From positions 1-37,604 of the IMG/VR virus record IMGVR_UViG_3300025652_000206: 37,604 nt of DNA. The stretch is one strand, 5' to 3'. This document shows positions 1,282 to 37,604 of this stretch, piece after piece (the stretch's first letter is position 1; every line of letters starts with the position of its first letter). This DNA comes from a virus. The position numbers were made by a program, and so were the translations under genes. Under the pieces are notes generated by a model. That model ran no database searches. It was not told the DNA's origin and saw only the letters and a list, made by a program, of their open reading frames with translations.

Positions 1282-3702
1282 ATGGCAGAGTCTGGCATTA
1301 AAAGTTATTTCCCAAGTCAAACCGTTAGCGATGCTGAAAAGTTGAGCTATGAGTATGGGTTAAAGGTAGGTAAAGCTATAGAGCAAGAATGGTTTAATCA
1401 TGATAGAGGTTCTAATAGGTATAAAGCTAATCAAAATGATTTTCATAATTTAAGGTTGTACGCTAGAGGCGAGCAGTCTATTCAAAAGTATAAGGATGAG
1501 TTATCGATCAACGGTGATTTGTCCTATCTTAATTTAGATTGGAAGCCTGTTCCGATTATATCTAAGTTTGTAGATATAGTTGTTAATGGTATTGCTGAGA
1601 GAACTTACGATATAAGAGCTTATTCACAAGATCCTTTTAGCCTGAGCAAGAGAACCAAGTACATGGAGTCCATATTAAATGATATGGAATACCAAGACTT
1701 CGATAAGTTTGCGGCAGAAAACATGGGCGTTAACACTAGGGAGAGCGAAGAGAAAAAACTACCTGAAAGCCCAGAGGAACTGCAGTTACACATGCAGTTG
1801 ACTTATAAGCAATCTATTGAAATCGCTGAAGAGCAAGCCCTAAATATACTGTTTGAAGGAAATAACTATGAGTTAATTAAAAAGCAATTTTATTACGATT
1901 TAACTGTACTTGGAATTGGCGCTGTTAAAACTAATTTTAACACATCTGAGGGTGTTGTTGTGGACTATGTTGACCCAGCAAACTTAGTTTACTCATACAC
2001 CGAATCACCATACTTTGAAGATATATACTACGTTGGAGAGGTAAAGACTATACCAGTAAACGAATTAGCAAAGCAATTTCCTCATTTATCAGAAAGCGAT
2101 CTTGAGGACATAATGAAGAATAAGTCTAATAGTAGATCGAACTATAACTCAAGACACGCTAGCGATAAAGAAGACAACAATACAATTCAGGTTATTTACT
2201 TTAACTACAAGACTTACATGAATGAGGTTTACAAAGTTAAAGAAACAGCAACGGGTGGAGATAAGGTTATATTAAGAGACGACCAGTACAATCCACCAAA
2301 AGAAAAAGAAGGTGGATATGGCAGAATGCTAAGATCTATAGAATGCCTTTACGAAGGCGCTATGATACTTGGTACTGACAAACTGCTTAAATGGGAGATG
2401 GCTAAAAACATGATGCGCGAAAAGAGCGATTTTACAAAAGTAAAGATGAATTACGCTATAGTTGCTCCTAGAATGTACGATGGTAGGATAGATTCTTTGG
2501 TTAAAAGAATAACTGGTTTCGCTGACATGATTCAGCTTACTCACCTCAAACTACAGCAGGTGATGTCTAGGTTGGTTCCAGATGGCGTTTATTTAGATGC
2601 TGATGGTTTAGCTGAAATAGATTTAGGTAATGGAACCAATTACAACCCACAAGAAGCTCTAAACATGTACTTCCAAACAGGTTCGGTTATAGGTAGATCG
2701 TTTACTTCTGACGGAGATATGAATCCAGGGAAAGTACCTATTCAAGAAATAACATCTGGATCTGGTGGTAATAAAATGCAGGCCCTAATCGGTACGTATA
2801 ATTATTATCTTCAAATGATAAGAGATGTGACGGGTTTAAATGAGGCTAGAGACGGAAGCACTCCAGACAAAAACGCGTTAGTTGGTGTTCAAAAGCTAGC
2901 GGCAGCAAATTCTAATACAGCAACTAGACATATATTACAGGCTGGTTTATTCTTGACAGCTGAAACCGCTGAGTGTTTGTCTCTCAGGATATCTGATATT
3001 ATAGAGTATTCTCCAACTAAAGATGCTTTTGTACAGCAAATTGGCGTTCATAACGTAGCTACTTTAGAGGAAATATCAAACCTTCATTTATATGATTTTG
3101 GCATATTTTTAGATTTACAACCAGACGAGGAAGAAAGGCAATTGCTAGAAAACAACGTTCAAATGGCAATTCAGCAGCAAGTTATAGAGCTAGCTGACGC
3201 TATTGACATAAGAGAGATAAGGAACATTAAACTCGCAAACCAACTTCTAAAAATACGTAGAAAACAAAAGCTAGATAAAGATCAAGCTCTACAAGAAAGA
3301 AACATGCAGATGCAAAGCCAGACAAACCAACAAGCGGCACAATCAGCAGCTCAAGCAGAAATTCAAAAAAACCAAGCAATAACAGCTAGTCAAGCAGAGC
3401 TAGAGCAATTAAAGGCTCAATTGGCTTCTCAGAAAATGATGCAGGAAGTTGAGCATAAAAAAGAGTTGATGCAGATGGAGTTCCAGATGAACATGCAGTT
3501 AAAGGGGGTTGAGGCTGAGGGAAAGAGAGTAGGTGAAAAAGAAAAAGAAGACCGTAAAGACGAAAGAACAAAAATTCAAGCTACTCAACAAAGTGAGATG
3601 ATTGAACAAAGAAATGGTGGTAAACCACCTAAAAACTTTGAGTCCGCAGGTAATGATATACTAGGTGGCGGATTCGATTTAGGTAGTTTTGACCCTAGTT
3701 AA
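1282..3702 (+). CDS. Portal protein with long Gln-rich coiled-coil tail
   Basis: 806 aa. The portal is the dodecameric ring at the capsid vertex through which DNA enters and leaves. Support: position directly after the terminase, length in the range of podovirus portals, and a portal-like core (KPVPIISKFVDIVVNGIAER near residue 95; KNALVGVQKLAAANSNTATR near 533). Residues about 640-785 form a long Gln/Lys/Glu-rich predicted coiled coil, as in portals with a barrel or crown. The extreme C-terminus (786-806) leaves the coiled coil and reads FESAGND, then a Gly-rich FDLGSFDPS end. The same FESAG motif occurs at the N-terminus of the following scaffold gene. The start has an A/T-rich leader (aagtaataaat) and no Shine-Dalgarno sequence. 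An alternative role is unlikely given context. Confidence 0.88.
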   Translation: MAESGIKSYFPSQTVSDAEKLSYEYGLKVGKAIEQEWFNHDRGSNRYKANQNDFHNLRLYARGEQSIQKYKDELSINGDLSYLNLDWKPVPIISKFVDIVVNGIAERTYDIRAYSQDPFSLSKRTKYMESILNDMEYQDFDKFAAENMGVNTRESEEKKLPESPEELQLHMQLTYKQSIEIAEEQALNILFEGNNYELIKKQFYYDLTVLGIGAVKTNFNTSEGVVVDYVDPANLVYSYTESPYFEDIYYVGEVKTIPVNELAKQFPHLSESDLEDIMKNKSNSRSNYNSRHASDKEDNNTIQVIYFNYKTYMNEVYKVKETATGGDKVILRDDQYNPPKEKEGGYGRMLRSIECLYEGAMILGTDKLLKWEMAKNMMREKSDFTKVKMNYAIVAPRMYDGRIDSLVKRITGFADMIQLTHLKLQQVMSRLVPDGVYLDADGLAEIDLGNGTNYNPQEALNMYFQTGSVIGRSFTSDGDMNPGKVPIQEITSGSGGNKMQALIGTYNYYLQMIRDVTGLNEARDGSTPDKNALVGVQKLAAANSNTATRHILQAGLFLTAETAECLSLRISDIIEYSPTKDAFVQQIGVHNVATLEEISNLHLYDFGIFLDLQPDEEERQLLENNVQMAIQQQVIELADAIDIREIRNIKLANQLLKIRRKQKLDKDQALQERNMQMQSQTNQQAAQSAAQAEIQKNQAITASQAELEQLKAQLASQKMMQEVEHKKELMQMEFQMNMQLKGVEAEGKRVGEKEKEDRKDERTKIQATQQSEMIEQRNGGKPPKNFESAGNDILGGGFDLGSFDPS

Positions 3703-21653: not shown

Positions 21654-24600
21654 ATGAACGAAGAACTAAATTCATTATGGACATCGCTATCTAGTAAGTT
21701 TGACATCGGTGGCTTCGAACAGTTTAGCAGTAAGATGCAAACTCCAGAAGAGAGAAAAAGATTTTTTGACACTATGGCTTCTCGCAATGTTGATCTTGGT
21801 GGTTACGAGGAATATGAGAGTAGGCTGGGAAAAGCACAAGACTTGACGGTAGATCCGACGATGAGTCAGAGCGATACGGGGTCACAATCGGCGGATGGTT
21901 TATCGGAATCACAAGACGATAATGTAAATTGGTTTGATCAAACTTGGTTTGGTAGAGGTTACGCCGCGGCCAGTACAACCGGCGAGGCTACAGACTTGTT
22001 TATGGAGGGTTCTGACGTAAGCATGGAAACCATACAAGAGTTTATAAAAGCTAAAGAAGGTGAAGCTAAAGCTCACGTTCCATCTGAACGTATGAATAGG
22101 TTTCAAAAAAAATACAAAGAAGAGGGCTCTTCTTGGACTGCTTTTTTTAGAGGAGTAAGGGATGAGCCGAGTTTATTAAGTGAATTGTTTGTACAGTCCT
22201 TGGGTACTCAGGTAGGAACTTTTTTTGATTCAGACAAAGCTAGAATGGCTACCGCGGCTGGTGGTGCCGCTGGGGCTGGAGCGACAGCATACTTAGGTTA
22301 TGGCGCTATAGCTGGTGGTGCTGCTGGAGCTATGGGTGGTTTAGCCACTTCAATGGAGACAGCTTTGACGTTTGGCGAGTTAATAGAAACTGAGTTAGCC
22401 AAAGACAAGCTAGAGTTTACTGATAAGAATATAAAAGCACTTTTAGAGAGTTCTAAGGGTAAAGAAATAAGAAACAAGGCCATAGGAAGGGGTTTAACTA
22501 TTGGAGCCGTAGAGGCTCTTACTGGTGGCGTTGCTGGCAGGGTGACTACGGGTGTTTTAAAGACTGCTAAAACAGCTGGAAAAGCCGTCACTAAAACAAG
22601 GAAGGTGGCAGCGGCGGGAGCAGGTATAGTAGTTGAAGGTGTTGGTGGTGGTGCCGGTGAGGTTGGTGGTAGATTAGCTGCTGGCCAAGAGATGGATGCT
22701 GCAGAAATTGGTTTTGAAGCTATTACAGGTACAACTACAGCGCCGCTTAATGTTGGTGGGGCTTTATTGCGTTACAAAAAACCTGTTTACAAGTTAAACG
22801 GGAAAGTTGTTGAATACAAGGATATGAAAGACTTTGTGGAAACAGCTGACGATATTGATGTTGCGAAAGCAAACATCGTGATGGAAAACGATTTAAGCGG
22901 TTTAGATGCTTTGGCCAACAAAAAACAAACTGATGCTATAACAGACTCTCAAGTCGATAAATTGGTTACAGACAAAAAAGATAGAGCTAAGTTAGTGCAG
23001 CTAGAGTACGAAAGAAGAAAAGCAGAGTTTAATGCCAAGAAAAAAGGAATCGACCAAGTACCTGGCGCTGAGGAGAAACTTACCAAGGTGCAAGCTGAGA
23101 TTGATGGTATTATAGGTAAGTATGATGGAGCTATAGACAAGTCTCTAACCGAAGGAGCCGCTGAGGTTCGCAAAGCTCAACGAGAAAACAACCTTATTGA
23201 CACTATTGCTTTTTTGCAGAAAAATAAAAAGTATGCTGGTAAGGATGTTGTGATAGCCGATGACGATGCGGCTGCTCAATTGGCTCACGACAAAGCTATT
23301 AAGGAGTATAACGCTAAAAACCCAAACAACAAAATTAAAGCGGAAGATGTATCGGGTTCTGATGGATTTATAGTGGGTGATGTAATTGTAATCAACAAAG
23401 ATATAGCCGGTCAGACGGGCGCCATAAACGTCGGAGCACATGAGCTACTACATGGTATCATGGGTAAGCATATGAAAACATTGGATGACGCGGGCAAAGT
23501 GGAGTTAGGAAAAAGCTTTATGGATGTTTTAACAAAAGATCAAGATGCTGCTGTAAGAAAAAGATTGAAAGAAAACTACAATCTTGAAGGAGACAACGTT
23601 TTTGCTTCAGAAGAAATATTTACTGCTTTTTCAGATGCCATTACAAAAGGCGAAATAACTTTCGACAAAGGAGTTTTTGGTAAACTGAAAGAAGTTATAG
23701 AAAGAATATTTAAAGGAAAAGGTTACAATAAAGAGTTTGAAAATGGAAAAGCAGTTTATGACTTTTTAAAAGATTATCAAAAAAGTGTCGCTGCAGGCGG
23801 TGAAATAAGTACTAGAGCTCAAAAGTTGGCGGGTGGTGGAACTACAGCTACGGATACAAAAGCATCCAAAACTTTAGACAAGAGAAGTCCAGAAGATTTA
23901 ATTAAAATAATACAAAGAGGTGGAAACCCAAGGCAAGTTAAGAATGCTGAAGATGCTTTAGTACCTCAATATGAGGCTATGGTCGTGGAGGCTTTGAAAT
24001 ACAACGAAGCAAAAGGTGATATAAGGAGAGAAAACGTTGTGTCTGCTGCTAGAGAGTATTACAAGGCTATAGTAAAAAACTATGATCCTAAAAAAGGAAA
24101 GTTCTCAACACATGTTTATGGTAATATAGCGCCGAAAAATGACACTATATTTGAAAAAGCTAAAACATTAGAAAAGCGTGATGAAAGTGTTAGTTTAAAC
24201 GCTCCAGAGGCTATGCAGGTAGAGGGTGATGCTGGCAAGACAACAAACACTGAGAAAACTTTTGTACAAAAAATAAATATACTACAGGATTTCGCTATAG
24301 CAAATAGAGTTGCTGATAAAATAAAAGCTTTAGTCAAAGTCACTAAAGGTGATAACTTTAAAAGTATAATATCTAAGTATGCTGGTAAAGTTGGTGAGCT
24401 TATATTTGAAGTGCCTGCTAATAAAATTATGGAAGGAGGCGCTAATCTAGCGGCTGTCACAAAGTACACCGAAGGCATGCCGGCTCCAGCTGAAGCTCAG
24501 AATATACAAAGATTTTTTAATGCACCAAACAACGCGGATAAGTTTATCAAAACGTTACCACTGTATAATGTAACCGATAAAACCGCTGATATAAACAAAA

Positions 24601-27600
24601 TAGGTGAAAACATAGAAGTATCAAGAGACACTTATGGCTATGCTATTGGTTTAAAAGGCTTGCCACTAGATTATTTTTACGAAAAATACACTGATCCCAA
24701 GGCTCTTAGTAAAGATCCCAAAGTTTATGAGCAAAGAGTCACCTCTAAAGCTGGGAGAAGTATGGGTCTAACAAGTCAGACGCCAATGAAAAGGCTAAAA
24801 CCACAGTTCAGAAAGCCTACACCAGAAACCGTTGAGCAGTTTAAGAAAGACTTAGGTATTACGCCAAAGAATGAAGCAAATGTGTATAGCAGGGACATCG
24901 GACAGCTACTAAAAGGTGTTGCTAAGGTTCACTCTATAAACGCGGCTATATCTGGAGCGCAAAGATTTCAAGAAGCTAAACTTAAGGCAACGCCCGTGAC
25001 AGAGCAAAAAGCCATAAAACAACAAACAGCTGATATTACAGCCGCTCAAAATAAAGTTGCTTTTAGCACTAGCACACAGAGAACTGGTAAACTTATGCGG
25101 CAAAATCTTAGGATAGATGACGCTAAATTTAGAGACAAGTTGCTATTATTAAATAAATTAGCACCTACACTTCGGATCAAAAAGGAGGCCGACATTGGGA
25201 CTTACATCGAGATGCTCAAAAAGGATGTATTCCCGTTACTACCAAAAGCCGCTTGGTTTGGACCAGGAAAGGGAACTGCTTTTGATAGTTCAAGCAAGGG
25301 CATAGGTGTTGATAGTTCTTCCGACCCGCTGTGGGTTAAATTTCAAGAAGAAATCAAGAAATTAAAAAACGATGATTCAATAGTTTACGGCCCAGATATA
25401 AAAGGTGTTGATGCGGACAGCATGTGGTCGTTAAGAACCAAGTACACGCCTCTCTTTAGCACCCCAGAAAAAGCTAGAAAAAACATTAAAAATGGTGAGA
25501 TCGCTAAGTTCAACGAGCAGGTTGGGCTTATACACAAAGCACTTTGGAAAAGAATAAATAAATCTATAAAAGATACTAAAGGGGAGTCCGCGCCCGGTAT
25601 TGCTACTTACCTAGGCTTAGTAGCTAACGACACGGGTCACTGGCATAAGATGGGCGCTCAATTCGCTGGTTTTTCAAGAAAAATTACAAAAAGAAAAAAA
25701 GATAAAAAAGGTAAGGATCAAAAAAGCAGAGTTGAATACGAACACGCTATGGTAGCTACAGAAGCCTACATATATCTGTTAGATGCTGCTATAAACCACA
25801 ATCAATCTTTTGATTACATCTACGGTAAGATTATCGAAAATTATAAGTTAATAGCTCTAGACAAAGCTATGGACGATAAACTGAAAAATGCTAGGACAAA
25901 AAGCGGTCGCAGCCTAATGACAAACATGCCTGATGGTTGGAATGCTGAGTTTGGGTCTTGGTGGGAAAGGTACTTCAATAACATAGTAGGCGAGCAAGAT
26001 GGTGGTATAGACCCATCTTCAATAGAAGGACTAGATGGCAAAACCTTTGCCGAAGCGCTTAACGTTAATGCAGAGGGCAATTCTTCTGTTATTAAAACTG
26101 GTATACAACATTCTAAAACTCTAACTAAAGCAGTTAACTTCTCTAGATCAACTAACAACCCTACAAAAGGCATTACAGTTCTAGACTTTGACGATACACT
26201 AGCTACTAGTAAATCTTTAATTAGGTTTACAAAACCCGACGGAACCAAAGGCACGTTAAACGCAGAGCAGTACGCTAGTACATATCAAGAGTTAACAGAA
26301 TTAGGTTATAAATGGGATTTTTCAGAGTTCACTAAAGTTGTAGATGGTAAAACCGCACCACTATTTAACAAAGCAATGAAATTGCAAGGTAAGTTTGGTC
26401 CTGAGAACATGTTTGTATTAACAGCTAGACCAGCAGCCGCGGCTCCAGCTATATTTGCTTTCCTACAAGCTAATGGCTTAAACATACCACTAAAAAATAT
26501 TACTGGCTTAGCTAACTCTACAGCCGAAGCAAAGGCATTGTGGATGGTTGAAAAAGTAAGCGATGGTTATAATGATTTTTACTTTGCAGACGATGCTTTG
26601 CAGAACGTACAAGCTGTAGACAATATATTAGAACAATTCGATGTTAAGCGTAAGGTTCAGCAAGCTAGAGTTAATTTTAGTAAGTCAATGAACGAAAGGT
26701 TTAACGATATACTAGAAAATGTAACGGGTATTAATTCTGAGAAAAGATTTTCAGCTATTAAAGGTAGAAAGCGTGGTGAGGGTAAAGGTAAGTTTAGAGT
26801 GTTTATACCACCGTCTCACGAGGATTTTGTAGGTTTATTATACAACTTTTTAGGTAAAGGCAAAGAAGGTAATGCACATAGAGATTTTTTTGAACAAGCC
26901 TTAGTTAGACCTTTAAACAGAGCTAATAGAGAGTATGATACAGCTAGGCAAAGCGTGGCTAATGATTACAAAAATCTAGCAAAAAGATTTCCTAAGGCAG
27001 CAAAAGCACTAATTAAAAAAACGCCAGACGGTGACTTTACCTACCAAGACGCCGTAAGAGTGTACCTGTGGGATAAGCACGGCCACAAAATCCCTGGCTT
27101 ATCGCCAACTGATCAACAAAAATTAGTTGAACTCGTTAACTCAATGCCTGGCCTGAGGTCTTATGCTAAAAACGTAAACATTATATCTAAACAAGAGACT
27201 TATGTAGGCCCAACTGAAGGCTGGAACTCTGGTGATATACGCATGGATCTAGATGATGCCACAAGTAGAATAGGTAGAAAGCAATTTTTTGCTGAATTTA
27301 TTGAAAACGCAGGCATTATATTTTCTGAAGAAAACCTAAATAAAATCGAAGCTGGTTATGGTAAGGGTGTTACAGAGGCCTTAGAAGATATGTTATATAG
27401 GATTCAGACCGGTAGAAATAGGCCAACTGGACAAAACGGACAGGTTAATAAGCTAATGAACTTTTTAAATGGCTCTGTTGGTACGGTCATGTTCTTTAAT
27501 ATGAGATCTGCTTTACTGCAACAAATGTCCATCGTCAACTACATTAACTTTGCCGACAACAATGTACTTGCAGTGGCTAAAGCTTTTGCAAATCAAAAAC

Positions 27601-28769
27601 AGTATTGGGCTGATTGGTCATTCATATTTAACTCTGACATGCTAAAGCAGAGAAGGGGTGGTATACAGACCGATGTCAATGGCGCTGAACTCGCTGCTAG
27701 TCTGCGCAACTCTAAAGATATAACTAGAAAATTAATATCTAAACTATTGGAGTTAGGATTTTTGCCTACACAAATTGGTGATAACATTGCAATAGCAACT
27801 GGTGGAGCTGCTTATTATAGAAATAGAATAAACACGTATTTAAAACAAGGCTTAAGTCAAAAAGAAGCCGAAGCTAAAGCATTCACTGATTTTCAAGATA
27901 TAACTCAAGCTACTCAACAGTCAGCAAGGCCTGATATGGTTTCTAAGCAACAAGCATCTGTTATTGGTAAAGTTATATTAAACTTCCAAAACGTTACGTC
28001 TCAGTTTAATAGGTTAGGTAAAAAAGCTTTTCAAGATATATACAATAGAAGAATAACAAAACCTAACAATACTCAAATGCAGAGCGATATATCTAACGCT
28101 GCTAGAATAACGTATTACTTCGCTGTTCAAAACATGATATTCTACACGCTACAAACAGCCCTGTTCGCTATGATGTTTGACGATGACGAAGAGGATAATA
28201 ATAATTTATTTTTAAAGAAAAGAGAAAGGTTAATAAACGGTAGCATTGATTCTGTATTAAGAGGCACTGGTTTAATTGGCGGTGTGGTTGCCACGTTAAA
28301 AAACGTTGCAATTGCTTTTGCTAGACAAAGAGATGTTAAGTATAATCCAGATGAAAGTGCTGTTATCGTAGAAGCTTTAAACTTATCGCCAGTTTTAGGT
28401 ATTAAAGCCAGGCAGGTTGTTAACGCTGAAAAAACTCTTAATTACAATAAAAAAGTTATAGATGAAATGGAAACTCTTGACATTGACAATCCACAGTGGT
28501 CTGCTATTACGGGCTATACTCAGGCTTTTACAAACATACCTTTAAATAGATTATACAATAAAACTCAGAATGTCAGGCAAGCTCTAAACAACGACCACTC
28601 TTCTTGGGAAAGATCTTTAATGTTTTTAGGTTGGAGTCAATATAATCTTGATATTAAGAATGAAAAAATGGAGAAAATTAAAGCTCAAGCAAAGTCTAGT
28701 AAAAAAACAAATTCTAAGTCAAATACGAAAACAAGGACAAGAACTAGAACTAGAACGAGAACACGTTAA
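21654..28769 (+). CDS. Giant polyvalent-type ejection protein: zincin, sigma-r2-like and HAD domains
   Basis: 2371 aa, the last and largest gene of the ejection module, starting 1 base after its neighbour. Order: twin motifs FDIGGFEQF (16-24) and VDLGGYEEY (46-54); a Gly/Ala-rich membrane-active-looking region (about 195-350); a zincin metallopeptidase with H596-ELL-H600 and a likely third ligand Glu653 or 654; a sigma-70 region-2-like segment (about 765-830, YDPKKGKFSTHVYGNI); unassigned parts (about 850-1500); a HAD phosphatase with D1511-F-D1513, T1590, K1627 and D1646-D1647; a large helical C-terminal domain (about 1720-2330) resembling the conserved end of phage large polyvalent proteins, with a hydrophobic stretch near 2150-2180; and a (Thr-Arg)6 tail. 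Such proteins are thought to enter the cell with the DNA. No lysozyme or transglycosylase motif was seen. Confidence 0.75.
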   Translation: MNEELNSLWTSLSSKFDIGGFEQFSSKMQTPEERKRFFDTMASRNVDLGGYEEYESRLGKAQDLTVDPTMSQSDTGSQSADGLSESQDDNVNWFDQTWFGRGYAAASTTGEATDLFMEGSDVSMETIQEFIKAKEGEAKAHVPSERMNRFQKKYKEEGSSWTAFFRGVRDEPSLLSELFVQSLGTQVGTFFDSDKARMATAAGGAAGAGATAYLGYGAIAGGAAGAMGGLATSMETALTFGELIETELAKDKLEFTDKNIKALLESSKGKEIRNKAIGRGLTIGAVEALTGGVAGRVTTGVLKTAKTAGKAVTKTRKVAAAGAGIVVEGVGGGAGEVGGRLAAGQEMDAAEIGFEAITGTTTAPLNVGGALLRYKKPVYKLNGKVVEYKDMKDFVETADDIDVAKANIVMENDLSGLDALANKKQTDAITDSQVDKLVTDKKDRAKLVQLEYERRKAEFNAKKKGIDQVPGAEEKLTKVQAEIDGIIGKYDGAIDKSLTEGAAEVRKAQRENNLIDTIAFLQKNKKYAGKDVVIADDDAAAQLAHDKAIKEYNAKNPNNKIKAEDVSGSDGFIVGDVIVINKDIAGQTGAINVGAHELLHGIMGKHMKTLDDAGKVELGKSFMDVLTKDQDAAVRKRLKENYNLEGDNVFASEEIFTAFSDAITKGEITFDKGVFGKLKEVIERIFKGKGYNKEFENGKAVYDFLKDYQKSVAAGGEISTRAQKLAGGGTTATDTKASKTLDKRSPEDLIKIIQRGGNPRQVKNAEDALVPQYEAMVVEALKYNEAKGDIRRENVVSAAREYYKAIVKNYDPKKGKFSTHVYGNIAPKNDTIFEKAKTLEKRDESVSLNAPEAMQVEGDAGKTTNTEKTFVQKINILQDFAIANRVADKIKALVKVTKGDNFKSIISKYAGKVGELIFEVPANKIMEGGANLAAVTKYTEGMPAPAEAQNIQRFFNAPNNADKFIKTLPLYNVTDKTADINKIGENIEVSRDTYGYAIGLKGLPLDYFYEKYTDPKALSKDPKVYEQRVTSKAGRSMGLTSQTPMKRLKPQFRKPTPETVEQFKKDLGITPKNEANVYSRDIGQLLKGVAKVHSINAAISGAQRFQEAKLKATPVTEQKAIKQQTADITAAQNKVAFSTSTQRTGKLMRQNLRIDDAKFRDKLLLLNKLAPTLRIKKEADIGTYIEMLKKDVFPLLPKAAWFGPGKGTAFDSSSKGIGVDSSSDPLWVKFQEEIKKLKNDDSIVYGPDIKGVDADSMWSLRTKYTPLFSTPEKARKNIKNGEIAKFNEQVGLIHKALWKRINKSIKDTKGESAPGIATYLGLVANDTGHWHKMGAQFAGFSRKITKRKKDKKGKDQKSRVEYEHAMVATEAYIYLLDAAINHNQSFDYIYGKIIENYKLIALDKAMDDKLKNARTKSGRSLMTNMPDGWNAEFGSWWERYFNNIVGEQDGGIDPSSIEGLDGKTFAEALNVNAEGNSSVIKTGIQHSKTLTKAVNFSRSTNNPTKGITVLDFDDTLATSKSLIRFTKPDGTKGTLNAEQYASTYQELTELGYKWDFSEFTKVVDGKTAPLFNKAMKLQGKFGPENMFVLTARPAAAAPAIFAFLQANGLNIPLKNITGLANSTAEAKALWMVEKVSDGYNDFYFADDALQNVQAVDNILEQFDVKRKVQQARVNFSKSMNERFNDILENVTGINSEKRFSAIKGRKRGEGKGKFRVFIPPSHEDFVGLLYNFLGKGKEGNAHRDFFEQALVRPLNRANREYDTARQSVANDYKNLAKRFPKAAKALIKKTPDGDFTYQDAVRVYLWDKHGHKIPGLSPTDQQKLVELVNSMPGLRSYAKNVNIISKQETYVGPTEGWNSGDIRMDLDDATSRIGRKQFFAEFIENAGIIFSEENLNKIEAGYGKGVTEALEDMLYRIQTGRNRPTGQNGQVNKLMNFLNGSVGTVMFFNMRSALLQQMSIVNYINFADNNVLAVAKAFANQKQYWADWSFIFNSDMLKQRRGGIQTDVNGAELAASLRNSKDITRKLISKLLELGFLPTQIGDNIAIATGGAAYYRNRINTYLKQGLSQKEAEAKAFTDFQDITQATQQSARPDMVSKQQASVIGKVILNFQNVTSQFNRLGKKAFQDIYNRRITKPNNTQMQSDISNAARITYYFAVQNMIFYTLQTALFAMMFDDDEEDNNNLFLKKRERLINGSIDSVLRGTGLIGGVVATLKNVAIAFARQRDVKYNPDESAVIVEALNLSPVLGIKARQVVNAEKTLNYNKKVIDEMETLDIDNPQWSAITGYTQAFTNIPLNRLYNKTQNVRQALNNDHSSWERSLMFLGWSQYNLDIKNEKMEKIKAQAKSSKKTNSKSNTKTRTRTRTRTRTR
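28725..28766 (+). repeat. Coding hexanucleotide repeat: (Thr-Arg)6 tail
   Basis: The last 14 residues of the giant protein are TK followed by six TR pairs. Codons vary (ACA/ACT/ACG for Thr; AGG/AGA/CGT for Arg), so the repeat is kept at protein level and is not simply a fresh DNA slippage product. A Lys/Ser/Asn-rich stretch precedes it. The tail is strongly basic and could contact packaged DNA or membrane. Confidence 0.85.
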
Positions 28770-28799: not shown

Positions 28800-29849
28800 A
28801 TGGTGAAAAGATTAATTATACTACTGCTACTAGCGTCTAACATAGTAACAGCGCAAACGTTTAGTAAAGAAGATGTTAAGAAGCTATTTAAGTTCTCTAC
28901 ATTTTATGCTGCTGTAAACGGTGGGACCTCCTTGTCGAATGTGGAGGTTTTCTCTGTAGACAACGGCTTATCAACACAAACAATTTCAACTCCCTATGAT
29001 TATAATCTCACCATGGGACTACGTAAAATAGCTAGATTCGGTTACGAAAATAAAGCAAATACATTTTATGACGGAACCGAGACGAATTACAGTGATGCGG
29101 CCACTGTAGGTAAGCTAAGAGGAGTTGAATACTTATTTGAAATGGATTTCAAGAGACAAGAAGGTAACGAGTATCTTGATCAACACCATTTTATAAGGTA
29201 CGTTAGCGATCACTATACTATCAAGGGAGAATACTTGGAGGATGGTTTTGCTGATATAAAGTACTTTGAAGCATCGGAAAGATATAGATATAAAGTTAAT
29301 AGAAAATTCTCTGTTAACGCTGGAGCTGTTCAAAGGTTATCAGAACCTTATGGTTATAACCCTTTAGACGAGTGGTTATTAGCAAATGGAGATATACACT
29401 ATACTTACTTAGCTCTACAAGAGGGTTATAATGTTGATGTATGGCATCAACTATATTACGATCCTAGTGGAAAAGTTGTAGCTAATAGTGCAGAAGTTTG
29501 GGAGGCAGTTGTAATACCACAGGTGTTAGCTGATTACTCAGAAAGAAAAAGAAACGAAATGGAAAACAGCACACTACATTCATTTGTACTGGGCTTTGAT
29601 TTCTATCATTATAATAAAAACTACTGGTGTCATGGTTGGGGCAATTTAATGCCTTATCATTATGATGATGGTAGCAAGTACAACTATCATAAATTTGCAG
29701 GTGAACAATGGTTAGATTACTCGGGTGGAGTTATACTCGGTGTTAAGATCAACAAACACTTAGGAGCATTTGCAGAAGGAAAATACAATAAGTACTGGAA
29801 CAGAGAGTGGTACGACTTCAAGTTTGGAGTAAACTACGTAATATTTTAA
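28800..29849 (+). CDS. Phage-encoded outer-membrane beta-barrel-like protein
   Basis: 349 aa. Residues 1-18 are a Sec signal peptide (MVKRLIILLLLASNIVTA) with Q19 at +1. The mature part alternates polar and aromatic/hydrophobic residues in strand-like runs (GVEYLFEMDFKR; HTLTL-like YDYNLTMGLRK; HSFVLGFDFYHYN; GVILGVKIN; AFAEGKYNKYW) and ends DFKFGVNYVIF. A C-terminal Phe after alternating aromatics is the recognition signal of the BAM outer-membrane assembly machinery. It opens the envelope-related block after the ejection genes. Candidate roles are receptor masking or superinfection exclusion, altered permeability, or a lysis helper. A virion protein is less likely because of the signal peptide. 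The family was not recognised; the barrel call is from pattern. Confidence 0.62.
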   Translation: MVKRLIILLLLASNIVTAQTFSKEDVKKLFKFSTFYAAVNGGTSLSNVEVFSVDNGLSTQTISTPYDYNLTMGLRKIARFGYENKANTFYDGTETNYSDAATVGKLRGVEYLFEMDFKRQEGNEYLDQHHFIRYVSDHYTIKGEYLEDGFADIKYFEASERYRYKVNRKFSVNAGAVQRLSEPYGYNPLDEWLLANGDIHYTYLALQEGYNVDVWHQLYYDPSGKVVANSAEVWEAVVIPQVLADYSERKRNEMENSTLHSFVLGFDFYHYNKNYWCHGWGNLMPYHYDDGSKYNYHKFAGEQWLDYSGGVILGVKINKHLGAFAEGKYNKYWNREWYDFKFGVNYVIF

Positions 29850-30406: not shown

Positions 30407-30691
30407 ATGGCAAAGGAATTAAACGAGAACTCGGGTTTTCAGGTAAGCATAAAAACGTTGGTAGGCATTGGGGTAGGCATGGCGACTGTTATAAGTATGT
30501 GGTTTATGCTACAGGCTGATATCGCTGAGGCAAAGACCTTACCTATTCCACCACCTCAAGACGTGTCGCGCATGGAGTTTGATATGAAAGACAAGAACAT
30601 TAGACTTTCTATAGAGAACACCGAAAAAGCTGTTGACGATTTAAAAGATAGGTTGATCCGAATGGAAGATAAACTAGATAAATTAAGATAA
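30407..30691 (+). CDS. Single-pass membrane protein with coiled coil (holin or spanin candidate)
   Basis: 94 aa, starting at the base after the previous stop codon. A single hydrophobic segment (about 15-35, IKTLVGIGVGMATVISMWFML) is followed by a Pro-rich turn (PIPPP) and a heptad-like helix to the end (IRLSIENTEKAVDDLKDRLI). A short N-terminus with one membrane span and a long charged coiled coil fits an inner-membrane spanin-like or holin-like lysis protein, or an anchor for a neighbouring periplasmic partner. Its stop overlaps the next start (TAATG), so it is probably translationally coupled to the thioredoxin-like gene. The specific function is not established by sequence. Confidence 0.6.
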   Translation: MAKELNENSGFQVSIKTLVGIGVGMATVISMWFMLQADIAEAKTLPIPPPQDVSRMEFDMKDKNIRLSIENTEKAVDDLKDRLIRMEDKLDKLR

Positions 30692-31050
30692 TGAAGAATA
30701 TAGATGTTTCTTGGAAGATACTAGGTATATACGTTTTAGTACTACTCTTAGTATGCTTTGCTCAAAGGGCGTCTGGACAAATTGTTGTCACACACTTCAA
30801 TGCTGCTTGGAATGATCCTAATAAAGTAAAGTACATTGGAGAACTAACAGACTGTGACATTGTATATGTAGACATAGCGGCAGCACCTAAGCTACAAGCT
30901 AAGCACGAGATAGTGGTTGTACCAACTGTCGTTATATATAAGGATGGTGAAGAGATGAAAAGATATCAAGCTGACATATCATTTAGTATGAAAGCCACGA
31001 GAAGAGAAATGCAGGACTACATAGATGAATTATTAATGAGCGACTTTTAA
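30691..31050 (+). CDS. Exported thioredoxin-fold protein lacking the CxxC motif
   Basis: 119 aa. Residues 9-29 form a signal peptide or anchor, with predicted cleavage after G29 leaving Q30. The rest follows the thioredoxin plan: strand IVVTHFNAAW (31-40), the active-site turn, strand DIVYVDIAA (56-64), helix, EIVVVPTVVIYKDGEE with the characteristic cis-Pro78, and a C-terminal helix (MQDYIDELLM). Where thioredoxin has WCGPC, this protein has W40-N-D-P-N44, so both redox cysteines are absent; the only mature Cys is C55. It therefore cannot do classical disulfide exchange and may be a binding protein or chaperone in the periplasm. Expression is coupled to the preceding gene by a TAATG overlap. 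Confidence 0.7.
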   Translation: MKNIDVSWKILGIYVLVLLLVCFAQRASGQIVVTHFNAAWNDPNKVKYIGELTDCDIVYVDIAAAPKLQAKHEIVVVPTVVIYKDGEEMKRYQADISFSMKATRREMQDYIDELLMSDF

Positions 31051-31335: not shown

Positions 31336-31509
31336 ATGGCATACAACAACAATTTTTGTAAAACTGGAAAAAGCAAATCTTCTCCAATGACTTTCAAAGG
31401 AGCAGACTCTTCAAATTCATCTTGCTGGAAGGGTAAAGTAAAAGTAGGTACTAAAAAAGGAAAATATGGTAGAACTGTAAACGATTGTAAAGATCCAAAG
31501 GATATATAA
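31336..31509 (+). CDS. 57-aa basic Cys protein
   Basis: A complete short ORF fills the gap between 31333 and 31509. It starts MAYNNNFCKTGKSKSSPMTF and ends KDPKDI. Support: it begins 2 bases after the previous stop, its TAA overlaps the next ATG (TAATG), and its ATGGCATAC opening matches two neighbours. The protein has Cys at 8, 30 and 51, is Lys/Gly/Ser-rich, and carries an SPMTFKG segment similar in feel to GSTFKMMGSSP at the start of the 29858 product. No signal peptide or membrane segment. Function unknown; coding status is likely from packing and coupling. Confidence 0.7.
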   Translation: MAYNNNFCKTGKSKSSPMTFKGADSSNSSCWKGKVKVGTKKGKYGRTVNDCKDPKDI

Positions 31510-33863
31510 TGAAAAAACTACTAATACTACTATTATTACCACTAAGTATATTCGCTCAAGACTCATGGGTTCGATTTCAAGTACAATTTGATTTCTACGC
31601 ACCACAAGAATCTAATTTCTTTATGGTATCTGATGGATACGGTGATACTTCTATATTTTTTCAACCAACTAATCAGTACGAATATTTAGATACTGTTTTA
31701 GATGTTAACAGTGGTAGTTATACTATAAGTTTAAGAGATAGTTATGGAGATGGATGGGTGTCATCTCAGCCAGCTTCTTTTAAAATGGGTAATACTTGTC
31801 AAGGAGATATAATAGATTGGTCTCCAGTGCTTGGATCTTTCTTTCAAAGAGACACAACTGTAACTATATATCCTTGCCCACCACCGCCACCACCAGTATG
31901 TATACCTGCATTGCTGCATATAAACTTAGATCAATACCAAAGCGAAACCTCTTGGGATATTAAAGATTCAAATGGTATTATAGTTGAATCAGGCGGTTCT
32001 TATGGTTCTATGGTTGACTATCAATCATTCAGCGTTCCAATGTGCTTACCAGTTGGTCAATTCAGCTTTACTATGTACGATACATATGGAGATGGTTTAG
32101 CAGGATCGTTATGGGGAGGACAAGATGGATCGTACTACCTAACACAATGCAATGATACCTTGGTCAATGGTAGCGTCGCAAATTTTGGTTTTGACTCAAC
32201 GCATGTGTTTGCATCAGATAGCTGTCCACCCGTCTACGGTTGTATGGATACTTCTTATATTGAGTTCAACCCTCTCGCAGATACAGATGACGGAAGCTGC
32301 TTAGACTTAGTGGTTGTAGGTTGTACGGATTCTACAATGTTCAACTATGATCCACTGGCCAACAGAATGGCTCTAATACCTAATTGTGATTATACCTTAA
32401 CTCTATATGATTTAATGGGTGATGGTTGGGTTGGTTCTTACCTAAGAGTTATACAGGGCACGGACACAAATCAATTTATACTTACCTCTGGCTTTAGCCA
32501 AAACTTTACTATAAACTTAAACGCTCCAGAGCAAGTTCGTTTTAAGTTCTTTATAACACAACAAGCTCAACTAACAGCTGCTCACTGTGGTTTTAAATTA
32601 ACAAATCCATTAGGAAATGTTATTATAGAAACTCCAGCTCCATTTATACAGCCTCTGTTTAATTACACTACACTGACTTATTGTGGTAACTTATGCATAG
32701 ACAAAGTCTTTGGGTGTTTAGATCCGTTAGCGGTCAACTATGACACACTAGCGAACACAGAGGACAGCACTTGTTACTATGTACCTGGTTGTATGAATTC
32801 TTCATACTTAGAGTATTACACTCAAGGGTTTTTGGCTGACTATGACGATGGAAGTTGTGTGGTCTCTGCGATTTGGGGTTGTACGGATTCCATTGCATTT
32901 AACTGGGATTCGCTAGCAAATATCGATAATGGCGGGTGTTTACCTGTGATCTTAGGATGTATGCAGCCGTTAGCTTTTAACTTTAATGCTTTGGCTAATA
33001 CTTCAGATACGTGTATAGCAGTCGTCTACGGTTGTATGAGTTCGATAGCTATAAACTATGATTCTCTGGCTAACATAGATGATGGTAGCTGCATCGGAAT
33101 TACATATGGATGTATTGATACCTCAGCGTTTAATTATTCCCTTACAGCTAACGTAGATGACGGTAGTTGCATTCCAGTTATATACGGATGTATAAACCCA
33201 ACACAATTTAACTATGACTCTACAGCTAACACTAATGACGGAACTTGCATACCATATATTTATGGGTGTACAGACTCTACAATGTTTAACTATAACCCAT
33301 TAGCAAATGCTGACAATAGTAGCTGCACTCCTTATGTATTCGGTTGTACGGATCCTTCTATGCTTAATTACGATCCCTTGTCGAATACAGAGGATTTTAC
33401 TTGCATTGAATTCTTATATGGATGCATGGACAGCTTGGCTCTTAACTATGATTCACTTGCTAACACAGAAAATCAATCGTGTATTGCTATCGTTAAGGGT
33501 TGCATGGATCTTAATGCCTATAACTATCTTGTCGAGGCCAATGTTAGTGATAGTAACTGCCTTTATGCTGCTAGCTGTGCTACTGGCCCTGGTATTCCTT
33601 ATTGGTTAAATGATCCTTGTTATGCTTGGGTTATCGATGTCGATAATTACTGCTGTGATAATCAGTGGGATGAGGTTTGTCAATTAACCTACGATTACTG
33701 CGATGGAACTTACATCGGTAATATACCAGCTAGAAAAGCTGCTATTAAAAAACTAGTGGCAATAACAGATCTACTGGGTAGACCTTCAAAAGAAGGTAGC
33801 AACAAACTACTGTTCTACATCTATGATGATGGAACGGTTGAAAAGAAAATAAAACAAAACTAA
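31509..33863 (+). CDS. Secreted Cys-repeat adhesin-like protein with T9SS-type sorting tail
   Basis: 784 aa. Signal peptide 1-16 (MKKLLILLLLPLSIFA), then Q17. Residues about 17-235 hold two beta modules, each with a D-x-YGDG turn (DSYGDGW 77-83; DTYGDGLAGS near 196), joined by C123-PPPPPP-V-C131. From 243 to 684 come 13 repeats of the form GCxDxxxxNYDxLANxDDGSC; after repeat 2 a third module (DLMGDGW) is inserted. Next is a Cys-rich unit (DNYCCDNQWDEVCQ). The C-terminus, from KKLVAITDLLGRPSK to LFYIYDDGTVEKKI (about 747-781), looks like a type A sorting signal of the type IX secretion system. Such architecture is typical of secreted surface proteins of Bacteroidota, not of phage virions. Likely role: display on the infected cell or an adhesive appendage. 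Confidence 0.72.
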   Translation: MKKLLILLLLPLSIFAQDSWVRFQVQFDFYAPQESNFFMVSDGYGDTSIFFQPTNQYEYLDTVLDVNSGSYTISLRDSYGDGWVSSQPASFKMGNTCQGDIIDWSPVLGSFFQRDTTVTIYPCPPPPPPVCIPALLHINLDQYQSETSWDIKDSNGIIVESGGSYGSMVDYQSFSVPMCLPVGQFSFTMYDTYGDGLAGSLWGGQDGSYYLTQCNDTLVNGSVANFGFDSTHVFASDSCPPVYGCMDTSYIEFNPLADTDDGSCLDLVVVGCTDSTMFNYDPLANRMALIPNCDYTLTLYDLMGDGWVGSYLRVIQGTDTNQFILTSGFSQNFTINLNAPEQVRFKFFITQQAQLTAAHCGFKLTNPLGNVIIETPAPFIQPLFNYTTLTYCGNLCIDKVFGCLDPLAVNYDTLANTEDSTCYYVPGCMNSSYLEYYTQGFLADYDDGSCVVSAIWGCTDSIAFNWDSLANIDNGGCLPVILGCMQPLAFNFNALANTSDTCIAVVYGCMSSIAINYDSLANIDDGSCIGITYGCIDTSAFNYSLTANVDDGSCIPVIYGCINPTQFNYDSTANTNDGTCIPYIYGCTDSTMFNYNPLANADNSSCTPYVFGCTDPSMLNYDPLSNTEDFTCIEFLYGCMDSLALNYDSLANTENQSCIAIVKGCMDLNAYNYLVEANVSDSNCLYAASCATGPGIPYWLNDPCYAWVIDVDNYCCDNQWDEVCQLTYDYCDGTYIGNIPARKAAIKKLVAITDLLGRPSKEGSNKLLFYIYDDGTVEKKIKQN
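32235..33560 (+). repeat. 13 Cys-bounded protein repeats (GCxD...NYDxLAN...DDGSC)
   Basis: Coding repeat array, residues 243-684 of the 31509 product. Most units are 26-27 residues (about 80 bases). Each starts at Gly-Cys and ends with Cys after an Asp/Asn-rich turn, so each probably has one internal disulfide and perhaps a bound cation. Units 3-13 are contiguous; unit 2 breaks off after YDPLANR into a separate module. Nucleotide divergence between units is high, so this is an old array. Confidence 0.85.
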
Positions 33864-33888: not shown

Positions 33889-34314
33889 ATGGCAACAACA
33901 ACAGCAACAATTACGCTTGCGAGCGCGGACCTGCTATCTGACAACTTGTCGTTGTCGGCTACACAGACGCTACACAAAGCTGGTACAACAACTGGTTTAG
34001 ATGGTATTCAATATGAAAGACTAGAGGTTGCTACTGGCGACGTTTATGACTTAACAGATCAATTAGGCGCTACTGCACTTGGAGCAAACAAAGCAAATAA
34101 AGTCTACATAGCTAACAAGCATACAGACCCAACTAGATATGTTGATATTTATATAGCAGCCGTAAACATTGGTAGACTTTACGCTGGAGACTGGATGTTT
34201 ATTCCTTTAGAGGCGGCTTCGGCGGCTCAAGACGTAGGTATAGATGCGGTAACCGTGTCTCAAGTAATAGAATTTGCTTTAATCCACGAGGGAAAAACGC
34301 TTCCACAATCATAA
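33889..34314 (+). CDS. Small beta-rich structural protein A (tandem family)
   Basis: 141 aa. It begins MATTTATITLASADL, nearly the same as the next gene, and ends with KVYIANKHTDPTRYVDIYIA, INIGRLYAGDWMF-like strands and IEFALIHEGKTLPQS. The all-beta look, small size and position just before the fibre gene suggest a virion surface, fibre-base or decoration protein. No signal peptide. It follows the adhesin gene by 25 bases of A-rich leader (ttaaaaagtaaaaac). Paralogous to 34338 by common start, the shared IGRLY(A/G)GDWM motif and equal length. Function not recognised. Confidence 0.6.
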   Translation: MATTTATITLASADLLSDNLSLSATQTLHKAGTTTGLDGIQYERLEVATGDVYDLTDQLGATALGANKANKVYIANKHTDPTRYVDIYIAAVNIGRLYAGDWMFIPLEAASAAQDVGIDAVTVSQVIEFALIHEGKTLPQS

Positions 34315-34337
34315 TAACGACAAATAAATAAATAAAT

Positions 34338-34751
34338 ATGGCAACAACAACAGCAACGATAACATTAGCTAGCGCTGATATTGCAGACAATGCGTTATCT
34401 ATTTCGAATACAATGACACTTACTACCGCTGGCACAACAACCGGTATTACAGAGACAACTGGTTTGGCTAGGGTAAAAATGGCTAGTACTACCTTAACAG
34501 ATCTTATAACAGTAGCGAACATAAATGGATTTACAGCCGCTTCGTCAGCTAAGGTTTACATTAAAAATACTGGTACGGCTACAGATAAATATGCTATCAT
34601 AGGTTTAGCGGGTAGTGCTGTTACCATAGGTAGATTATACGGTGGTGATTGGATGTTATTTCCTTGGGATGGGAATTCAGACGAAGACATCACTATAGAT
34701 ATGTCTGATGCTACCGAAACTATTATCGAGTACATGGTGTTCTTCGAATAG
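34338..34751 (+). CDS. Small beta-rich structural protein B (paralogue of A)
   Basis: 137 aa. The first 14 residues (MATTTATITLASAD) are identical to the preceding gene, and the first 20 bases of the two genes are identical. The shared motif IGRLYGGDWMLFPW and the IxEYM/IEFAL ending confirm duplication; the middles have diverged strongly. The leader has four AAAT units just before the ATG. Probably a virion protein assembled with its paralogue, possibly as a hetero-oligomer at the fibre base or capsid surface. Confidence 0.6.
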   Translation: MATTTATITLASADIADNALSISNTMTLTTAGTTTGITETTGLARVKMASTTLTDLITVANINGFTAASSAKVYIKNTGTATDKYAIIGLAGSAVTIGRLYGGDWMLFPWDGNSDEDITIDMSDATETIIEYMVFFE

Positions 34752-34754
34752 TAA

Positions 34755-35066
34755 ATGGCTAGTTACCATAATATATCTGGTGAACTAACTCAGGAATTAC
34801 TAGCAGTGGGAGGTGGGGTCAACGTGACATCTATCTCCCTTGTTAACACTCACACTAGCACCACATGTACCGTAGACTTATATATTGAGAAACAATTAAC
34901 TGGTAAATTCTATATAATGAAGAGTTTACAGTTGCCCGTTGGATCGACTTTAGTTCTAGAGGGTAATGATGTTAAATTTAGCAACAAAGCAAATCAATTT
35001 GGCTTGTATATAAAGCTAACTCAAGGAGCATCAGAAACACCAACAGTAGACGTAATAATATCATAA
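34755..35066 (+). CDS. Small beta-rich structural protein C (distant relative of A and B)
   Basis: 103 aa, starting 3 bases after gene B. It has the strand pattern VTSISLVNTHTSTTCTVDLY (about 24-43), which parallels KVYIANKHTDPTRYVDIYIA in gene A, then FYIMKSLQLPVGSTLVLEGN and a GLYIKLTQG strand. I read it as a shorter, distant member of the same fold. It precedes the fibre gene by 9 bases, so a role as fibre-associated or baseplate-like protein is plausible. No signal peptide or enzyme motif. Confidence 0.55.
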   Translation: MASYHNISGELTQELLAVGGGVNVTSISLVNTHTSTTCTVDLYIEKQLTGKFYIMKSLQLPVGSTLVLEGNDVKFSNKANQFGLYIKLTQGASETPTVDVIIS

Positions 35067-35075
35067 CAATTTAAT

Positions 35076-37604
35076 ATGAGGTGGATAGGTCAAATAACAT
35101 ACGATGAGGTAGCTTATTTCCGTGAAGATGTAATAATCGAAGCGGGTAATAAACTTGGTATTGGAACGGCTTCGCCTGGGTTTGCATTAGATATAAAAAC
35201 ATCTACAAGTGACGATGGTATTTCATTGTCAGCCACGTCTGGTAGAAAAGGTATTGAGATGCTGTTAGATAACGGGACAAACGGTGGTGGTGACATTAAA
35301 ATGTACACTGGCTCTAGTGTTCTAACAAATAGAATAACTGCACAAGGCTCAAGTTTTATTAATGGCGGAAATGTCGGTATCGGAACGACGAGTCCATTAT
35401 ATCCATTAGATGTTGTAGGAAGATTGAGGGCTTCAAGTCTTAAATTAGGTGGCACGGATGGAGCAGATGCATTTAATATTTTTTATTCTTCTGACAATGC
35501 TACTTTATGGAACTATGAATATGGTTACATGAGATTTGGAACTAATGCCACCGAGAGAATGCGTATCACATCTACTGGAAACGTCGGTATTGGAACGACT
35601 AGCCCGAGCGCTAAGTTAGATGTTTTTGTTAACAGCTCGTCTGGAGCTGCGGCAGGTAGTGATGATAACTTAGTTATTGAAGATAATGGGAATTCTTTTA
35701 TCAATATAAAAACACCAACTAATTCTGTTTCTGGTATTTTATTTTCCGACGCCACGAGAGCGAGAGGACAGGTAACATACGCTCACTCAGATGATGCGTT
35801 AAGACTTGTGACTGCAGGTACAGAAAAAATGCGCATCACATCAACTGGAAACGTCGGTATCGGAACAACTTCGCCAGCCACTAAGTTACATATAAACGAC
35901 GGAACAAATGTAAATTTAAAAATAGGAGCGGTTTCTGGTGAGCTACAAATTAAAACAACAAATGATGCTGACACTGGTTATACTCCTATAATTTTTAGAG
36001 CAAGTGAATATAATATTTTAAATGGAAACGTCGGCATCGGAACGACTTCGCCTGCAAGCTTACTCCACGTAGTAGGTGGTTTCACAAGGTTGGAGTCCTC
36101 TGGGGATAAACAATTGCAATTTCTTGGCTCTGGTAAAAATACTTTTTCAATAGAACACGACACTTCAAGGATTTATTTTTACAATAGCACAACATCTTCT
36201 TATCCACTAGCTATAATGAATAGTGGAAATGTCGGCATTGGAACAACAGCACCAACAAGACCTTTATCTGTATATAAAAATTCAGCTGGTTCAGTTGCTA
36301 ATTTTCTTCATTATACAGATGCATCAAATTTTCAAGGTTTATATATAGATGTTAGTCAATCAACTGATTTAGTTAGTTTAAAATCAAGTGGTGCAAACGC
36401 TGGTGGTTTCAATTTCTTTTGTGGTAATGCAGAAAAAATGCGTATCACATCAGATGGAAACGTTGGGATAGGGACAACAGCACCAACAGGAAAGCTAAAT
36501 ATAGTTAGTAGTTCTTCTGGAAGCTATTTATTAAATCTTGATTACAACGATAATACAGATGGTGGTGGTTTTTACCAATCAGGCTCTACTGGGCTTACTT
36601 TGTTCTTAAAAAATTCTTCTGCTGCTACAAAAGTTCAAATATCAAGTGAAAGCGCTAGTTATTTCAATGGAGGAAACGTCGGCATCGGAACGACTAGTCC
36701 TACGTCAAGGTTAGAATTAGCTGGTTACTATGTTGCGTCTAGTATTAGCAATGTAGGAGCAAATAGTTTGTTTACTCTTGACACAACTGTAAACACAGGA
36801 ATAAATCTAAAAGCCGGTATAACTAACAATTATAACGCGTACATACAAGGATATAATTCTCAAAGTGTAAGTTCTAGGTCTTTAGTGTTAAACCCATTCG
36901 GAGGCAACGTCGGTATAGGAACAACTAGTCCGACAAATATACTTCATACTTATACATCATCAAATAATGTTGGACGATTTGAGTCTTCTGATTCTGACGC
37001 GCATATTAGAATCAATGACAATGCTGATTCTTTATATGTTGGAACTCAAAACCAAAAAGGGTATATTGGTAGCACTGCTGCTAACAGTAGTAATAATCTA
37101 ACTATTGAGCTTACTAACGGCAACGTCGGCATAGGAACAACTTCGCCTGGTTATAAACTTCATGTCGCTGGTGGGGGTCTCCAAACCACAACGGCAACGG
37201 GTAATAAAATAGCTTATTACAATGGCGATAGCATTAACACTTACAGTTCTTCTGGTTATAGCATAAGCAATTTTACTGGTAATTTAACCATCAAAAACTC
37301 CGCCGATGACGGTGACATCATATTCCAATCAGACAATGGTGCTGGTGGTGGTGCTACTTACTTCTCTTTAGACGGTTCAGCGGCTACGCATGATGGATCT
37401 GCGACGACAGCTTTGTATACAAATTGGCCAGATAAATCTAGAATTAGTTTAGGTGCAAGTCATGATCTACGTTTTTATCATGATGCTACTACAAGTCGTG
37501 TTGAAAATCATACAGGTAATTTAGATTTTACAAATTATGCCGACGACGGTGACATAATCTTCCAATCAGACGACGCTTCAGGAGGAGTAACCGAATATTT
37601 TAGA
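35076..37604 (+). CDS. Tail fibre with GNVGIGTTSP repeats, 3'-truncated
   Basis: The frame is open from the ATG at 35076 to the window edge: 843 codons without a stop, so the gene continues to the right. It starts MRWIGQITYDEVAYFREDVI, then carries ten units centred on GNVGIGTTSPxxxLxV (starts at 35145, 35367, 35577, 35847, 36024, 36225, 36456, 36672, 36903, 37119; 59-90 residues apart), three of them preceded by (E/K)MRITS(T/D). The last part has two ADDGDIIFQSD units (37302, 37539) and LGASHDLRFYHDATTSRVEN, both familiar from marine phage fibres. Such fibres usually end in an intramolecular chaperone (peptidase S74) domain, which would lie outside the window. Role: trimeric host-recognition fibre. 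The leader is caatttaat. Confidence 0.85.
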   Translation, partial: MRWIGQITYDEVAYFREDVIIEAGNKLGIGTASPGFALDIKTSTSDDGISLSATSGRKGIEMLLDNGTNGGGDIKMYTGSSVLTNRITAQGSSFINGGNVGIGTTSPLYPLDVVGRLRASSLKLGGTDGADAFNIFYSSDNATLWNYEYGYMRFGTNATERMRITSTGNVGIGTTSPSAKLDVFVNSSSGAAAGSDDNLVIEDNGNSFINIKTPTNSVSGILFSDATRARGQVTYAHSDDALRLVTAGTEKMRITSTGNVGIGTTSPATKLHINDGTNVNLKIGAVSGELQIKTTNDADTGYTPIIFRASEYNILNGNVGIGTTSPASLLHVVGGFTRLESSGDKQLQFLGSGKNTFSIEHDTSRIYFYNSTTSSYPLAIMNSGNVGIGTTAPTRPLSVYKNSAGSVANFLHYTDASNFQGLYIDVSQSTDLVSLKSSGANAGGFNFFCGNAEKMRITSDGNVGIGTTAPTGKLNIVSSSSGSYLLNLDYNDNTDGGGFYQSGSTGLTLFLKNSSAATKVQISSESASYFNGGNVGIGTTSPTSRLELAGYYVASSISNVGANSLFTLDTTVNTGINLKAGITNNYNAYIQGYNSQSVSSRSLVLNPFGGNVGIGTTSPTNILHTYTSSNNVGRFESSDSDAHIRINDNADSLYVGTQNQKGYIGSTAANSSNNLTIELTNGNVGIGTTSPGYKLHVAGGGLQTTTATGNKIAYYNGDSINTYSSSGYSISNFTGNLTIKNSADDGDIIFQSDNGAGGGATYFSLDGSAATHDGSATTALYTNWPDKSRISLGASHDLRFYHDATTSRVENHTGNLDFTNYADDGDIIFQSDDASGGVTEYFR
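35145..37151 (+). repeat. Ten coding repeats of the GNVGIGTTSP motif
   Basis: Each unit has a core of about 30 bases encoding G-N-V-G-I-G-T-T-(S/A)-P. The core is much better conserved in DNA than the sequence between units: the copies at 36024-36047 and 36672-36695 are identical over 24 bases. That makes them good substrates for recombination that adds or removes units. The spacers encode variable beta sequence. Confidence 0.85.

Follow-up and report, generated by a model that had tools for sequence, protein, structure and literature searches.

The window analyzed here is the whole of a 37,604-base virus record (IMGVR_UViG_3300025652_000206, our record G000). Its phage origin is shown by a terminase, a portal and a major virion protein that match PHROGs at E ≤1e-90; the portal shares 42-53% identity with its counterparts in Elemovirus, Maribacter phage Panino and an uncultured spring podovirus. 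In the late region of this marine phage lies a gene that an earlier sequence-only reading had taken for a phage-encoded cargo of the host type IX secretion system (T9SS) (Table 1). The open reading frame runs uninterrupted where that reading placed it, and its ATG overlaps the TAA of a 57-aa ORF (TAATG), which confirms the tight coupling to the preceding gene. The frame is under purifying selection: against the L001 orthologue, dN/dS (NG86) is 0.22 for the whole gene and 0.13 for its tail. With a tail kept in every classifiable relative, this makes the observation more than a product of chance. Between the structural genes and the genes described below, a 2371-aa protein with a basic RTRTRT tail (21654-28769) has a weak chance Pfam match only. 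A fiber-like protein with many GNVGIGTTSP repeats (35076-37604) ends at the contig edge.

Table 1. Features of the phage window around the proposed T9SS cargo gene
Feature	Position	Strand	Remarks
Terminase large subunit (partial), marks phage identity	2..1276	+	phrog_6681, E 3e-97
Portal protein	1282..3702	+	related to Elemovirus, Maribacter phage Panino, Cellulophaga phages
Exported beta-barrel, outer membrane (predicted)	28800..29849	+	mean column identity 74%
94-aa protein, one likely membrane segment and likely coiled coil (by eye)	30407..30691	+
Exported thioredoxin-like protein without CXXC	30691..31050	+
57-aa ORF	31336..31509	+	TAA overlaps cargo ATG
Cargo gene, proposed T9SS substrate	31509..33863	+	784 aa, frame uninterrupted
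Signal peptide, residues 1-17, MKKLLILLLLPLSIFAQ	31509..31559	+	from sequence; relatives have the same type
Beta-sandwich module 1, residues 18-121	31560..31871	+	AF2 pLDDT about 76-90
Beta-sandwich module 2, residues 131-236	31899..32216	+	AF2 pLDDT about 65-85
13 Cys repeats (GC...NYDxLAN.DDGSC)	32238..33560	+	two at residues 244-293, eleven at 402-684
Beta-sandwich module 3, residues 290-390	32376..32678	+	AF2 pLDDT about 75-89
Conserved Cys cap, residues 690-731, DPCYAWVIDVDNYCCDNQWDEVCQLTYDYC	33576..33701	+	invariant columns of alignment A1
Short C-terminal sorting-type domain, residues 748-784	33750..33860	+	37 aa

The product, P0001, has the architecture described by the sequence-only reading. 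It begins with a signal peptide, judged by eye, of a type also found in its relatives (56 of 77 recognized by a crude rule, the other 21, P0001 among them, by eye). YGDG occurs at about residues 43, 79 and 193, with MGDG near 303, and there are exactly 13 GC...C units between residues 244 and 684 out of a total of 41 cysteines. AF2 gave no confident structure for the Cys repeats. Foldseek searches of the AF2 model against the PDB returned weak C2, laminin-G and adhesin-like matches only, which we do not use as evidence because most of the model is of low confidence. Neither the whole protein nor its pieces matched a relevant family in Pfam, NCBIfam, PHROGs or PDB sequences. By sequence, the modules resemble surface modules of the host type.

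Several observations concern these parts individually. The N-terminal module of the relatives at L057, L059, L063, L065, L066, L069 and L073 occurs in at least three types (DSWVRFQVQFDFY, EVVIHIKTDSYP and INTFPWxxDFEN), and such swapping suggests a varying binding specificity. Some leaders of the barrel and of cargo relatives resemble those of lipoproteins (..SCSTPKKCCSQ, ..AACSTPKECCGQ), as if the leader for export had itself been exchanged. The YGDG module (residues 135-244) has matches of 37-39% identity on large Vibrio replicons (NZ_CP050465, NZ_CP046066, NZ_CP046163 and NZ_CP045356), in stretches without a listed gene. Cys repeats without a sorting tail occur in other phage ORFs (L062:991-5256, L018, L019, L003, L004 and L069), possibly fiber proteins.

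A scan of IMG/VR viral contigs, the search in related phages proposed by the sequence-only reading, found at least 186 stretches encoding relatives of the cargo, from which 80 loci were retained. The gene travels with a cassette of exported proteins, linkage being seen in 66-74 of the 80 loci. The thioredoxin-like gene lies upstream of the cargo in all 73 relatives, abutting it in 33, and is itself abutted by the gene for the 94-aa membrane protein in 71 of 71. In 66 loci there is a barrel gene, which overlaps the cargo stop in seven and directly abuts it in two more. By the crude rule, signal peptides are found in 64/64 barrels and 70/74 thioredoxin-like proteins, as against 1/274 other ORFs; the same rule flags the 94-aa protein in 23/71 because of its membrane segment. 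The barrel has about 12 predicted strands and its top Foldseek matches are generic outer-membrane barrels such as NanC and autotransporters. It has no match in Pfam or NCBIfam, PorV and PorP/SprF included, and we rejected on sequence the idea that it is a PorV or PorP shuttle: what it shares is a barrel fold only. A role of the thioredoxin-like protein as disulfide maker was likewise rejected as stated, CXXC being present in 0 of 74 relatives.

Judged by the genes around it, the cassette is spread over several unrelated phage lineages. It accompanies a close portal in 15 of the 50 contigs searched and a portal of 21-23% identity in nine; it also occurs on large contigs without a detectable portal and on a contig that encodes a tail tube and an ssDNA-binding protein of T4 type. 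A portal of 42-48% identity and a similar order of head genes are shared with Elemovirus (Flavobacterium phages vB_FspP_elemo) and Maribacter phage Panino, which, unlike our window, have no barrel homologue. The phage collection contains no isolated phage with the cassette: no record has a barrel homologue, the cargo is matched only in its Cys repeats, and the thioredoxin-like protein has a sole, weak match in a Streptomyces phage. One 43-kb T4-type phage fragment with the cassette, a TIGR04183-tailed cargo and an adjoining endolysin (L225/L226, on G125:C32) sits in a Flavobacteriales bin. This bin contains several T4-type portal genes and its binning is therefore doubtful; it is probably contaminated with phage DNA, and we rejected the fragment as proof of host.

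The C-terminus reads as quoted by the sequence-only reading (DLLGRPSK...LFYIYDDGTVEKKIKQN), with the consensus KLIxITDLLGRP.K..KN.LLFYIYxDGTVEKKLIK among relatives. That reading had called it a type A sorting signal and proposed searches with TIGR04183 and TIGR04131. These profiles, NF033708 and Pfam matched neither the whole cargo nor its tail (TIGR04183 cut-off, 23 bits), and the "type A" label therefore fails literally. A profile-profile comparison of short and canonical phage tails (hhalign) was also not significant. As to structure prediction, another check proposed at the time, AF2 folds the tail into three strands (749-753, 767-772 and 777-781, pLDDT near 80) like published short C-terminal domains (CTDs), and Foldseek gave no match for it.

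The short tail can be compared with known classes of sorting signal. Like type A CTDs (TIGR04183), it is C-terminal and paired with a signal peptide, has an LLGR-like motif B and basic residues at the very end, and takes their place at the same position in families of phage and host alike. It differs in having three strands in 37 residues instead of a seven-strand beta-sandwich of about 70, no YPNP segment, no motif D GxY and no profile match. Type B (TIGR04131) and type C (NF033708) domains are likewise C-terminal T9SS sorting signals, and the short tail matches neither. The closest description comes from Prevotella intermedia, according to its authors the only species reported with both short and long CTDs; its short CTDs, of 40-51 residues, contain motifs B, D and E in a three-strand sheet, undergo cleavage and glycosylation, and were modeled to bind PorV like long CTDs (PMC11969387). 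The phage-type tail shares with them the three-strand sheet, a motif B with a basic residue after the Gly, a basic motif E, the presence of long CTDs in the same genome and a similar length (37-44 residues, at the lower end of about 40-55). In contrast, P. intermedia belongs to another Bacteroidota order, most of its short CTDs were picked up by earlier CTD models, which miss the phage-type tail, and the motif D glycine of known CTDs (GxY, or GxN, invariant in the P. intermedia type) is replaced at the equivalent place by N-x-L. As in T9SS cargoes, the conserved C-terminal domain reaches the last residues, and a targeting signal within the last 22 residues has been described for HBP35 (PMC11285876). 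Given the departure in motif D, we file the tail as working like a short T9SS CTD and not as a proven member.

One argument for a sorting function comes from the exchange of tails among phage relatives. Their bodies are about 45-68% identical and their C-termini differ: among the 74 members whose tail can be classified, 59 (P0001 included) have the short tail, 15 a canonical one, and none is tail-less. In one relative, an early stop of the ORF leaves the tail type unclassifiable. The canonical tails score above the TIGR04183 cut-off in 7/7 tested (26.8-37.1 bits), and the relative on the T4-type contig reaches 53.6 bits. On a tree of the bodies, built without the tails, tail type changes eight times, and at least seven of these changes are forced by well-supported (starred) branches. 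Recombination may distort the body tree, yet it leaves the constant presence of a tail unexplained.

The same short tail is used by cellular proteins. In six marine Flavobacteriales genomes chosen via Cys-repeat similarity, a tail-alignment search found 9-27 matches per genome; the tail lies 0-3 residues from the C-terminus in 53 of 53 recovered proteins, nearly all with signal peptides. Their bodies are unrelated (LRR, M43 peptidase, CotH, BD-FAE esterase, plastocyanin, DUF4886-PKD), and none of those tested had a T9SS profile match. These six genomes also contain 33-49 TIGR04183 matches each, and SprA in five. More widely, the short tail was found in 57 of 148 Flavobacteriales, 1-47 times per genome, and in 2 of 297 genomes drawn across the phylum, one being the center genome; it is thus almost confined to one group of Flavobacteriales. 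Of the 57 carriers, 56 have genomes of ≤2 Mb and 56 encode SprA; the association with SprA (Fisher p 5e-5, with no correction for kinship) is confounded by phylogeny, as most SprA-negative genomes sampled are reduced genomes of 0.6 Mb. A second, cellular swap is seen among M43 peptidases, of which 12 end in the short tail and 13 in a canonical one. Their bodies are 43-84% identical to the query body, and 63-72% to the same query across the swap; TIGR04183 was confirmed in 8/8 non-short members tested and 0/2 short ones. In one host protein (L227), the short tail is combined with a signal peptide and five Cys repeats; TIGR04183 tails terminate longer Cys-repeat proteins of the host. The tail and the modules suggest that the phage may infect a host of this group.

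Taken on these sequence patterns, the gene very probably encodes a phage cargo of the host T9SS. That central claim of the sequence-only reading is favored by the tail swapping and by the presence of the same tail in T9SS-bearing Flavobacteriales, and what does not survive is the assignment to type A. Phage-encoded T9SS cargoes have a precedent in Cryophage, described in 2020 from glacier cryoconite holes, where three variable genes (endoglucanase, GH39 and PA14) carry type A tails and are presumed to hijack host export (PMC7468147); we found no further example in the open-access literature searched. Unlike Cryophage, the phages studied here share one conserved family and a fixed exported cassette in several lineages. 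What is new is this conserved exported cassette and an uncatalogued sorting tail.

Among other explanations, one concerns the purpose of the cassette and competes with the role proposed below, not with export by T9SS. The barrel, the thioredoxin-like protein, the coiled-coil membrane protein and the cargo might all serve lysis, acting at the envelope just before burst. Common neighbors resemble, by eye, an M15-type endolysin, a holin and a DUF5675 protein, and a PHROG endolysin follows the cassette in the T4-type contig. Lysis requires neither a T9SS-type tail nor a large modular body, and nothing links the barrel to known lysis proteins; we consider this explanation unlikely.

It is improbable that the short tail directs secretion or anchoring by some other machinery also present in marine Flavobacteriales. 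The lack of a profile or profile-profile link to type A and the near-restriction of the tail to one group would fit such a machinery. Against it stand two unrelated families in which short and TIGR04183 tails replace each other at one and the same place, the occurrence of SprA in nearly all carriers, and a three-strand layout and length that fit the P. intermedia short CTDs, for which cleavage and glycosylation were shown.

We give as little credence to the cargo being a virion protein, a tail spike or fiber encoded among late structural genes whose N- and C-terminal features are incidental. The downstream genes (33889-37604) do look like fiber genes, a Cys repeat is present under "virion structural protein" in cyanophage S-CAM3, and the sorting tail is absent from other phage ORFs with such repeats; a virion protein would nevertheless fit poorly with signal peptides that are exceptional among the ORFs of these phages, with a host-type sorting tail kept through at least seven swaps, and with a host protein, L227, of the same architecture. 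Finally, that the cargo is a recently captured host surface gene without function is hardly credible, and we reject a reading against which the sequence-only reading had also argued: the modules are of the host type, but selection on the frame, 186 relative-encoding stretches in viral contigs, a fixed cassette order and the lack of a full-length cellular orthologue in the genome-contig scan all contradict capture of a dead gene.

Under the preferred reading of a phage cargo of the host T9SS, the precursor would be exported by Sec, lose its signal peptide and fold in the periplasm. Its C-terminal 37 residues would then be recognized by the host T9SS, presumably the SprA translocon and, by analogy, the PorV shuttle, PorV serving type A tails and PorP/SprF type B tails (PMC12618676). 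The protein would cross the outer membrane and lose its tail, and the body would either stay attached to the infected cell's surface or be shed from it. The tail may represent a minimal signal (a strand, the DLLGR turn, strand FYIY, the DDGT turn and strand VEKK) that replaces the 70-aa type A tail and that the host uses for its own secreted proteins. The body would consist of three beta-sandwich modules of the host surface type on a Cys-repeat stalk, and would act together with the co-inherited outer-membrane barrel and periplasmic thioredoxin-like protein.

The phage protein carries export tags of the host type, so the phage probably borrows the host's own route to coat or re-dress the infected cell. 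What this would achieve is a more tentative matter, as the computed evidence discriminates between none of the proposed roles. The sequence-only reading had suggested blocking of the receptor, a change in adhesion or the gathering of hosts. Remodeling of the surface or masking of receptors, leading to superinfection exclusion in which further phages do not adsorb, is the role that we prefer, though we hold it loosely, and a role in adhesion seems to us somewhat doubtful.

If correct, these findings make the use of a complete host secretion system by a phage directly testable in one conserved gene. The short tail can serve to identify the hosts of viral contigs, and the natural swap series should be useful for defining the minimal T9SS signal. 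Our results also suggest that a class of T9SS cargo in marine Flavobacteriales with small genomes escapes current profiles, with up to 47 matches per genome, so the secretomes of these bacteria would be under-counted. We lean, on balance, towards a picture in which streamlined marine Flavobacteriales use an uncatalogued minimal class of T9SS signal on many secreted proteins, and in which unrelated phages carry a dedicated cassette (a tailed cargo, an outer-membrane barrel and a periplasmic thioredoxin-like protein) that would remodel the surface of the infected cell.
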